A DNA stretch of 64,000 nucleotides from Kiritimatiellota bacterium B12222 (lineage in GTDB: Bacteria > Verrucomicrobiota > Kiritimatiellia > SS1-B-03-39 > UBA6053), in NCBI GenBank assembly GCA_029719485.1, contig CP120722.1:1798001-1862000 (forward strand), written 5' to 3'. Position 1 is the stretch's first letter. Each line of letters starts with the position of its first letter. The notes under the pieces were generated by a model. The model saw nothing but the letters and a program-made list of their open reading frames with translations. It searched no databases and was not told the DNA's origin. Both the position numbers and the translations under genes were made by a program. Shown here one piece after another: positions 309-6,304 of the stretch.

Positions 309-317
309 ACGTTAGGC
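260..317 (+). other. attC recombination site
   Basis: R'' box GGACAAC (260-266) and R' box GTTAGGC (311-317) flank an inverted repeat GTCCGAACC / GGTCCGGAC with one extra base on the right arm. The same stem recurs at 2161-2187. Confidence 0.85.
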
Positions 318-356: not shown

Positions 357-1262
357 ATGGAATATTATAGCGATCAAATAAATGGTTCTAAGCCTAGAGA
401 TGTTGAGATTATCCCTCCCAATGTTTGGGGGGGAATTGTGGCATTGGTAAATGGACTGGTTGCATCTGGTGCCTTTGGAAAGTATTTCCCAGAAGAATGT
501 CCGGATGGTCAGGGAATATACGCTACTAATGAAGAAGCTTTTAAATTAGCCCTAAATGCCGAAGTTCCAAATATTGAATATCCTTTTGTTACAAAAAAAT
601 CAGATTCTGATGACTGGATGGCAAAGGAAGAAAAGTTCTCACCTAATTACCTTTCGGTATTGGACTTCATTCAGTTTTGCTATGAACACGTTTCAAAGCC
701 CATTCAAGGTTCTCATCACAGCTATTTTAACCACTACCATTTGAGCTTTGATTGCGATGAAGGGAAAGATGATTTCAGGAGCAGAGTGAATCGTATTTTC
801 TCAAGAAATGGAATTTCTTATGAGCTAAAAGATACAGGGAGTATTATCAGGTTGGCACCTGAAGTATTATCTGACGCACTGAACACTGCTAGATTCAGCA
901 CTTCAGATTCTACTCTCAATCGAATGCTGGAAGAATCACGAGACAAATTCTTAAACCCTAACGAAACTATACGACGCGAGAGTTTAGAGCGTTTGTGGGA
1001 TGCGTGGGAAAGAATTAAAACAATACTAAATCCTGGAAATAAGAAAGCTTCAGCAACGCTTCTTCTGGAAAAGTGCGCAACCGAAGAAAACTTTAGAGAA
1101 CTATTAAACGAAGAAGCAAAAGCACTAACCACTATTGGTAATAAGTTTCATATTCGCCATAGTGAGGTTGGGCAAGTAGAGATACAAACAAGCTCTCAAA
1201 TAGATTATATATTTCATCGGTTGTTTAGCTTTATCTTGCTAGCATCTAAGAGCTTGGCCTAA
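357..1262 (+). CDS. Cassette-borne protein with Abi-like C-terminus, possible phage defence
   Basis: This 301-residue protein is the largest in the array. A Shine-Dalgarno-like GAGGA lies just before the ATG. The N-terminal two thirds is mixed and unrecognised. The C-terminal third holds 'LWDAWERIKTI', a Lys-rich linker, 'LTTIGNKFHIRHSE' and a final 'DYIFHRLFSFILL' helix. I recall this series at the C-terminus of abortive-infection-like proteins, which suggests defence; that is family memory and not tested here. The stop codon lies inside the R'' box of the cassette's attC (GCCTAA), which pairs with its leading GTTAGGC at 311. The attC itself is broken by a group II intron remnant. Confidence 0.75.
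   Translation: MEYYSDQINGSKPRDVEIIPPNVWGGIVALVNGLVASGAFGKYFPEECPDGQGIYATNEEAFKLALNAEVPNIEYPFVTKKSDSDDWMAKEEKFSPNYLSVLDFIQFCYEHVSKPIQGSHHSYFNHYHLSFDCDEGKDDFRSRVNRIFSRNGISYELKDTGSIIRLAPEVLSDALNTARFSTSDSTLNRMLEESRDKFLNPNETIRRESLERLWDAWERIKTILNPGNKKASATLLLEKCATEENFRELLNEEAKALTTIGNKFHIRHSEVGQVEIQTSSQIDYIFHRLFSFILLASKSLA
1257..1262 (+). other. Half attC: R'' box interrupted by intron remnant
   Basis: GCCTAA at 1257-1262 is the first six bases of GCCTAAC, the exact complement of this cassette's leading GTTAGGC. The seventh base and the rest of the attC are missing; intron sequence begins at once. No matching R' box is seen before the next gene at 1635. Confidence 0.75.
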
Positions 1263-1560
1263 TCGGGTAGCCGGAGGTTTCTAGCCTCCGGCCCCCACAC
1301 CACCGTACATGCGGGTCCGCATACGGCGGTTCCTGAAAGTCGGCAGAACCAGAATGAACCGACCGAGAGTTCGGTCTCGAATCCATTCATCCAGTATCCT
1401 TAGCGTAACTTGTTACCTTTGGTGACTCCGCCGGTTCGGCATCAACGTCCCTTAGGGAAGCTACGATCCAGATACTCCTTTCAAGTTTGACCCTTCAGCG
1501 GGGTGAGGCTGTTACGACGATCAAATAACGGTTACACTCACATCGATCCTTCCTGAGAAG
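1263..1560 (-). mobile_element. Group II intron remnant, ORF-less, 3' end intact
   Basis: Read on the minus strand, 1298-1332 folds as a domain V-like hairpin (GAACCGCCGTATGCGG, then CCGCATGTACGGTGGTG) and is followed by a domain VI-like stem at 1270-1292 and the terminal CTACCCGATT that ends many bacterial group II introns. Further 5' the sequence has the text 'CCGAACCGGCGGAGTCACC' and 'GGTAACAAGTTACGCTAAGG', which I associate with upstream intron domains. No reverse transcriptase gene is present, and no GTGCG-type 5' end or 5' exon can be found, so this is a truncated remnant; its right boundary is a guess. It is inserted in the bottom strand of an attC R'' box. Confidence 0.65.
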
Positions 1561-1634
1561 TGAGGACTGATCTTTACTTTTTCCCAAACCCTCAAAGTGC
1601 TTGCATGCTTGTCTTGATGGTGTAATTTAAACAT

Positions 1635-1850
1635 ATGACTACAGCAGAACTCCATCAACTCCCCAATTTGGAAAAACTAAAAATCATTGAAGCCCTCTGG
1701 TCTGATTTGGTTCAAGATGATGCATCCCTTCCTTCACCAGCATGGCATCAGGATGAGTTACGTAAAACCGAAGAAGATTACAAAGCTGGTAAGGTAGCTT
1801 CCATTGATTGGGAAAATGCCAAAAAACAGATCCGTGCTAAAGTCGAATGA
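1635..1850 (+). CDS. Antitoxin, putative addiction-module family
   Basis: A 71-residue acidic protein of the short 'putative addiction module' antitoxin type. It has an N-terminal helix 'LEKLKIIEALWSDL', the 'SPAWHQDEL' motif and a final basic stretch. It overlaps the next gene by ATGA, the usual antitoxin-toxin coupling. It resembles the second antitoxin of the array (5178-5384; shared 'SPAWH' motif). The partner toxin gene carries an in-frame stop, so this may now be an orphan antitoxin able to neutralise a related toxin. Its cassette's left boundary was lost with the broken attC. Confidence 0.85.
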   Translation: MTTAELHQLPNLEKLKIIEALWSDLVQDDASLPSPAWHQDELRKTEEDYKAGKVASIDWENAKKQIRAKVE

Positions 1851-2143
1851 AGGTACGGATACTCCCACCCGCAATGCAAGACATCCTTGCTGCACATGAA
1901 TTCTATAACCGACAAGAGGAAGGGCTTGGTGCCTATTTTCTGGATTGCATATTTTCCTAAATAGATTCGCTAGCCTTATATGCAGGAATTCACGCAAAGA
2001 CATTTGGATACCATAGACTTTTAGCTAGGCGATTCCCTTATGGAATTTACTATGCCTTTGAAGAAACGACACCTCTCGTATTTCGGATCTTGGATTGTAG
2101 ACGCAATCCCAATTGGATAGAAAAGCAACTAAAGCCCAACTGA
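1847..2143 (+). pseudogene. RelE/ParE-type toxin with in-frame stop
   Basis: Translation from the ATG at 1847 gives 37 residues and then TAA at 1958-1960. The same frame continues for 60 more residues to TGA at 2141. The downstream part ('YAGIHAKTFGYHRLL', 'FPYGIYY', 'ILDCRRNPNWI') aligns residue for residue with the intact toxin at 5381-5728 ('YAGIHSKRYGCFRLI', 'FPFAIYY', 'ILDMRRKPNTI'). In the homologue the stop position holds Asp. One substitution appears to have killed the toxin; there is no frameshift. Readthrough or sequencing error are the alternatives. Confidence 0.85.
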
Positions 2144-2144
2144 A

Positions 2145-2202
2145 AATCAACTATTCACTGGTCCGAACCTCCTCCGTCGGTCCGGACAGCTAAACGTTAT
2201 AC
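2145..2202 (+). other. attC recombination site
   Basis: R'' AATCAAC (2145-2151), stem GTCCGAACC / GGTCCGGAC, R' GTTATAC (2196-2202). The stem is nearly identical to the site at 260-317. The next cassette ends with GTATAAC, the exact complement of this R'. Confidence 0.85.
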
Positions 2203-2215
2203 CCTCTACCCTACC

Positions 2216-2695
2216 ATGAATGAAACTTTTGAATACGAATGGACTCCGAAACTTGGGAAAGCATCCCTTGATGCATATTTCAGAACGCTTGAGGGACGCC
2301 CGTGGTTAATGCTAGCTGGTGGGTTATTCTCGTTTTCAGCGGGGTTCTACTTCCTTTTTGCAGATCCTGAGGAGCCCTGGGGTGTCGTTTGTATAATTTT
2401 CGGAACAGTTTTCATCTTGAGGCCTGTAAAAATGTTCTTTTACAAGAAAAGGCTTTGCAAAGATTCTGTTCGGCTGGCTCCGACTTCAAAAGTCGCAGTT
2501 GTAATCACTGAGGATCATTTGGCGATAACGTCTTCTGAATCAAATAGGACCATAAAATGGGATAGTTTTACTAAAACAAAACTGATAGATGGTTTTTTGA
2601 TGTGCTTCTCAGGAAAAATTTTGGCCGCATCAATTCCATTGAGTATTCTAGATGAAAAACACATCGAATATATCAAAAAGAAAATACCACGATAG
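2216..2695 (+). CDS. YcxB-like membrane protein (cassette)
   Basis: A 159-residue protein with two membrane segments around residues 30-75 ('WLMLAGGLFSFSAGFYFLF' and a second after a short EEPW turn). A cytosolic C-terminal half has the look of the YcxB family: an ITEDHL strand, 'SNRTIKWDSF', then 'IPLSIL' and an amphipathic C-terminal helix. Function unknown. It is the only gene of its cassette (2196-2744); the cassette's terminal R'' exactly complements its leading box. The family name is from pattern memory. Confidence 0.7.
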   Translation: MNETFEYEWTPKLGKASLDAYFRTLEGRPWLMLAGGLFSFSAGFYFLFADPEEPWGVVCIIFGTVFILRPVKMFFYKKRLCKDSVRLAPTSKVAVVITEDHLAITSSESNRTIKWDSFTKTKLIDGFLMCFSGKILAASIPLSILDEKHIEYIKKKIPR

Positions 2696-5384: not shown

Positions 5385-5728
5385 ATTTCAGGAATGTGGA
5401 ACTCTTGGACGAGGCGGAGTTCGACCTCCATGCCGGGGAGTCGTTTTACAACGAAAGAGAGGTTGGGTTGGGAGACTATTTTGTGGACTGCCTGCTGTCG
5501 GATCTGTCCTCTCTTCAGCATTATGCCGGGATTCATTCTAAACGATACGGGTGCTTCCGACTCATTTCCAAAAGGTTTCCTTTTGCGATCTATTATGAGC
5601 TCGAAGAGGAAAGAGCCGTGGTTATCGCGATCCTCGACATGAGAAGAAAGCCCAATACCATACGAAACCTCGTGTCGGACCGGTCAACCATCGACGGCAC
5701 CGAACCCTCCGGGTCGGGTGCGCCCTAA
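5381..5728 (+). CDS. RelE/ParE-type toxin (cassette)
   Basis: A 115-residue protein from a GTG start overlapping the antitoxin stop. It shows the RelE/ParE plan: an N-terminal helix with 'EAEFDLHAGESFYNER', 'GLGDYFVDCLL', the central 'HYAGIHSKRYGCFRL', then strands 'FPFAIYYELEEERAVVIAILDMRRKP'. ParE-like members poison gyrase and RelE-like members cleave mRNA; which applies is not clear. The last residues (from about 'DGTEPSGSGAP') are encoded by the degenerate attC and are unlike the family. It is intact, unlike its relative at 1847-2143. Confidence 0.85.
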   Translation: MNFRNVELLDEAEFDLHAGESFYNEREVGLGDYFVDCLLSDLSSLQHYAGIHSKRYGCFRLISKRFPFAIYYELEEERAVVIAILDMRRKPNTIRNLVSDRSTIDGTEPSGSGAP

Positions 5729-5736
5729 CATTATGA
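5682..5736 (+). other. Degenerate attC site (A in place of the core G)
   Basis: R'' GGTCAAC (5682-5688) is 6/7 complementary to GTTGATC at 5099. An imperfect GGCACCGAACCC / GGGTCGGGTGCGCC stem follows. The expected R' reads ATTATGA (5730-5736), not GTTATGA. The next cassette nevertheless ends with TCATAAC, the exact complement of GTTATGA. Confidence 0.75.
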
Positions 5737-6244: not shown

Positions 6245-6304
6245 TCATAACCAAAATATTGAGCGAACCCTCATACTTCGGGTCCGCTCATCTTAACGTT
6301 GAGT
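6245..6304 (+). other. attC recombination site
   Basis: R'' TCATAAC (6245-6251) exactly complements GTTATGA. Stem GAGCGAACCC / GGGTCCGCTC around TCATACTTC; R' GTTGAGT (6298-6304). Confidence 0.9.

Follow-up and report, generated by a model that had tools for sequence, protein, structure and literature searches.

A truncated group IIC-attC intron at the junction of two integron cassettes in a Kiritimatiellota bacterium

The cassette array and the interrupted attC site

The window analysed here, a 64,000-nt stretch of DNA from Kiritimatiellota bacterium B12222, carries in its first 8 kb a series of gene cassettes, all on the plus strand and each ending in a short attC site. In this array the last box of a cassette, R'', is the reverse complement of the first box, R', of the same cassette. 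Consecutive attC sites were listed from position -1021 to 8340, the one at 5682-5736 being identified by visual inspection; an initial permissive attC finder, run over 68 kb upstream, proved too noisy, and its results were excluded. Among 13 consecutive cassettes, all four variable bases agree with the rule in nine and three of the four in the other four, while a match at three or more variable bases is expected by chance in ~5% of cases per cassette. The sole exception across 14 cassettes is the pair 311 to 2145, where GTTAGGC faces AATCAAC and none of the four variable bases matches.

The R' box GTTAGGC (311-317, plus strand), the end of the attC at 260-317, forms the first bases of this exceptional cassette. 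Its expected R'' is the reverse complement, GCCTAAC; the first-pass annotation had anticipated this ending, and the behaviour of the 13 other cassettes bears it out. The 0/4 score reflects the loss of the cassette's own attC. An integron cassette is recognized by an R' at its start that is complementary to the R'' at its end, and the unit 311-2195 has no such pair. It now holds an AbiJ-like gene (357-1262, plus strand; 301 residues with AbiJ N-terminal domain 4, PF18863, E 4.6e-20) and the antitoxin gene of the downstream cassette (1635-1850, plus strand; Unstab_antitox, PF09720, E 8.1e-15), which share a single attC at 2145-2202 (plus strand, R'' AATCAAC, R' GTTATAC). In the partner toxin gene at 1847-1960, the reading frame is closed prematurely at 1958-1960, 37 codons in, at a point where the chromosomal homologue (L040) reads on; from its sequence the toxin gene looks like a pseudogene.

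What is left of the lost R'' box is five of its seven bases, GCCTA at 1257-1261 (plus strand), as read directly and by the R'/R'' rule, and the TAA stop codon of the AbiJ-like gene sits at the junction of this box with an intron remnant. On the minus strand these five bases read as a 3' exon TAGGC, the same as that of plasmid-borne introns, intact copies of which read TTGT/GTACGCC...CCCGAT/TAGGC. Because the intact copies end in CCCGAT/TAG(GC), the intron ends at 1262: the A at that position is the complement of the last intron base, and the last A of GCCTAA is intron-derived. The earlier placement of the intron inside the R'' box thus holds, but its boundary, set after GCCTAA, was one base off. 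Introns of the group IIC-attC type insert at TTGT/T in R'', in the bottom strand of attC and in the orientation opposite to the cassettes (PMC7923331). The remnant likewise lies in the attC bottom strand and in the R'' box, although with the 5' exon deleted only half of the site is visible; the TAGGC half-site, as in the plasmid copies, supports the bottom-strand insertion against the cassettes proposed at first pass. No intron-free homologue of the AbiJ-like cassette was found among 97 relatives, and we infer the empty site.

Identity and class of the intron remnant

The minus-strand segment 1331-1262 matches the Rfam model of group II intron domains V and VI over its full length (RF00029, model positions 1-77, 51 bits, E 4.5e-07), which confirms that a group II intron remnant is present. 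This is the only RNA element found by Rfam in the whole window, and a genome search showed the domain V/VI to be single-copy. Domains V and VI extend to the 3' splice site (1262-1332, minus strand, ...CCCGAT, assigned by RF00029 and by identity to the plasmid introns) and include the AY of that site, with the intron ending in GAT. Folding of the minus-strand stretch, the check suggested in the first-pass annotation, gave z = -3.8 relative to shuffled sequences. The right-hand limit of 1562 given there found no support, as recognizable intron sequence stops near 1507-1509. Neither a domain I with its EBS nor a GUGYG-like 5' end was found, and RF01998 and RF02001 have no match in the window. Since intact relatives, unlike the window, match one or both of these D1-D4 models, domains I-III are gone; the remnant is 5'-truncated, a fragment of a group II intron rather than a functional member. 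In a profile search, no RVT_1 reverse transcriptase (RT) was found anywhere in the genome.

A blastn search of 1257-1640 against plasmids returned 619 matching records. The best matches span 1257-1332 with 90.8% identity over 76 nt, the exon edge included (for example pWLK-NDM), and the intron beside blaIMP-4 is nearly as similar. In the three records that were opened, the introns are located within class 1 integron segments or next to them, and their RT carries the annotation group II intron reverse transcriptase/maturase. By direct comparison, 65 of 73 domain V/VI positions are identical to each of two plasmid introns, one of them that of pWLK-NDM; identity is 89-91% to the IIC-attC introns of class 1 integrons, versus 75-84% to the other group IIC introns compared, from the remnant's own bacterial class. 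The short distal helix TGCGG-A-[C/G]CCGCA and the lower helix GCC...GGTGGTG are common to the remnant and the plasmid introns. By its domain V/VI sequence, then, the remnant is a group IIC-attC intron, the usual attC-targeting type, in a lineage normally defined on the RT that is absent here. The first-pass annotation had taken domain V to be unlike the usual attC-targeting type and had proposed an independent solution to the same target. The ~90% identity to plasmid IIC-attC introns, together with the published TTGT/T junction, refutes both points. That a different class of group II intron evolved attC targeting separately is hence very improbable: apart from a domain IV that differs from that of the plasmid introns, nothing speaks for it except the initial impression of domain V, whereas of all the introns compared those of the IIC-attC type in class 1 integrons are nearest in domain V/VI, and the junction is identical to theirs.

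The class 1 integron introns (1947 nt in pWLK-NDM and in pRo24724, of the S.ma.I2 type) resemble the remnant in domain V/VI, in the 3' exon TAG(GC), in the TTGT/T target in R'' and in their orientation against the cassettes. They are, however, full length and carry an RT in domain IV, whereas of the remnant's intron only the 3' portion survives, and its domain IV is a different one that has no RT. Also 5'-truncated is UHB.F1, a IIC-attC intron from a cassette array in a hypersaline metagenome (PMC7923331). It too lies within the array in the opposite orientation, and its RT is closest to that of a Verrucomicrobia bacterium; yet UHB.F1 keeps RT sequence, and the remnant keeps none.

Domain IV and relatives without a reverse transcriptase

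Two segments of domain IV remain. The 3' part (1333-1420, minus strand), between domain V and a conserved block, forms hairpins, one of them strong in the fold, and contains no RT sequence. The block itself (1421-1509, minus strand; ~85 nt) is shared, by local alignment and by a covariance model, with two full-length RT-less group IIC introns, L026 (= L007) and L027 (= L006), from metagenome-assembled Kiritimatiellota genomes of the same class, and it is collinear with their domain IV. With one scoring scheme for both, its alignment to L026 and to L027 scored above 500 of 500 shuffles; under stricter scoring, the score was reached by 0/500 shuffles for L026 and 3/500 for L027. A 20-base pattern from the block was found at the L026 and L027 loci only, among 84,980 genomes, and had no match in viral contigs. 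A covariance model built from the three copies (R1) recovered, in 346 genomes of the class, just these three and two chance-level matches; the latter (L079 and L080) were dismissed, having no adjoining domain V. Both relatives combine the block with a group IIC domain V/VI as the remnant does, but they are inserted outside attC and are complete (~650 and 760 nt).

No similarity to RT was detected in 1333-1509. The possibility that domain IV is a degraded RT was also addressed by tblastn of three IIC RTs against the window and its relatives, which gave chance matches only. In relatives that encode an RT, ~0-75 nt separate its end from domain V. The ancestral intron was probably a form without an RT of its own, although the window alone cannot prove this because the 5' part is missing and an RT could have stood upstream of the block. 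Bacterial group II introns that lack an ORF have been described as rare and as occurring, in most cases, together with a related RT (PMC4424553). The genome that harbours L027 (G060) is 98% complete and has no RVT_1 match, so its RT-less intron is possibly one that no RT serves.

A further RT-less intron, this one inside an attC site, was found in another genome of the class by a pattern consisting of the intron end plus TAG, which also matched at L056, L057 and L060. It is a full-length, 704-nt intron (L061, 2547-3250, plus strand) inserted at TTGT/TAGC, with a group IIC D1-D4 match (architecture D1-D4-3) and a domain IV without RT; like L026 and L027, it is complete and ORF-less. It shares with the remnant the R'' target and the lack of an RT, but in local alignment against shuffles its domain IV showed no significant similarity to that of the window. 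At L061 it stands back to back with a second group II intron of a different class, RT-coding and of the D1-D4-6 type (462-2393, minus strand), ~150 nt away.

RT-less IIC-attC introns may thus exist in this class. A bolder proposal, which we put forward as tentative and on balance doubtful, is that Kiritimatiellota integrons carry an RT-less IIC-attC lineage with a structured domain IV that would spread into attC sites by means of a trans-acting RT or through the shuffling of cassettes; the copy in the window would be a dead member of this lineage, and the one at L061 a member of full length. If these introns do form a lineage, they would amount to a non-autonomous group II retroelement of a kind that is rare in bacteria, and would let mobilization in trans be tested in a natural setting; a small group of RT-less IIC(-attC) introns in this class would be worth following.

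Origin of the fused cassette

The deletion junction at which domain IV now meets the leader of the following cassette lies in the stretch 1510-1634, in which nothing upstream of the block shows homology. The R' box of that cassette, expected to read GTTGATT, is absent; there is no GTTGA in 1263-1640. The leader of the toxin-antitoxin homologue at L040 is unrelated to the one in the window, and the junction can be placed only within that stretch. We consider it highly likely, at a probability of about 0.88, that a IIC-attC intron, itself probably RT-less, retrohomed into an attC site and that a subsequent deletion left an immobile scar and a cassette fusion. Judging from the behaviour of its family, the intron would have entered the attC of the AbiJ-like cassette on its bottom strand, directly behind the TTGT of R'' and against the cassettes. 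A later deletion, presumably a single event, would have taken domains I-III together with what remained of the attC and the very beginning of the following cassette, leaving only domains IV-VI in place. The AbiJ-like and toxin-antitoxin cassettes would thereby have been fused into one unit, from 311 to ~2195, that ends in the attC of the second.

Two other histories have to be weighed against this one. An ordinary RT-encoding IIC-attC intron might have lost its RT by deletion, with 1333-1509 being unrelated filler. The known plasmid and metagenome IIC-attC introns do encode an RT (PMC7923331), and truncation is common; yet 1421-1509 matches the domain IV of RT-less introns, above all 500 shuffles and collinear with domain V, and 1333-1509 is unlike RT in just the region next to domain V where the RT of coding relatives would end, which makes such a loss rather unlikely. 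Somewhat more credible, though still the lesser prospect, is that the remnant was never inserted here but arrived already truncated, inside a composite cassette formed elsewhere. The genome has neither an RT nor a second copy of the intron, and the unit 311-2195, bounded by a usable R' and an attC, could move as one cassette; on the other hand, the relatives searched yielded no further example of the composite unit. Under the retrohoming and deletion history that we favour, the locus documents the fusion of neighbouring cassettes through intron insertion and deletion. It also shows that IIC-attC introns, known mainly from resistance integrons, occur in chromosomal cassette arrays as well, here in an environmental phylum. 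The remnant itself is a degraded, immobile copy of a known kind, whose mildly unusual trait is its seemingly RT-less origin.

The array looks like an attC cluster that lacks an integrase, as none was seen beside it in the window. Two integron integrases (TIGR02249, 422 and 321 bits) are encoded outside the window, at G000:C1:1733888 and 2469421, that is, ~64 kb upstream of the array and 0.67 Mb away from it. Within the array, the attC at 5682-5736 has the crossover box ATTATGA in place of GTTATGA, a G to A change at the recombination point that, on sequence grounds, probably renders the site recombination-dead; the original box GTTATGA is still recorded in the R'' of the next cassette, TCATAAC at 6245.
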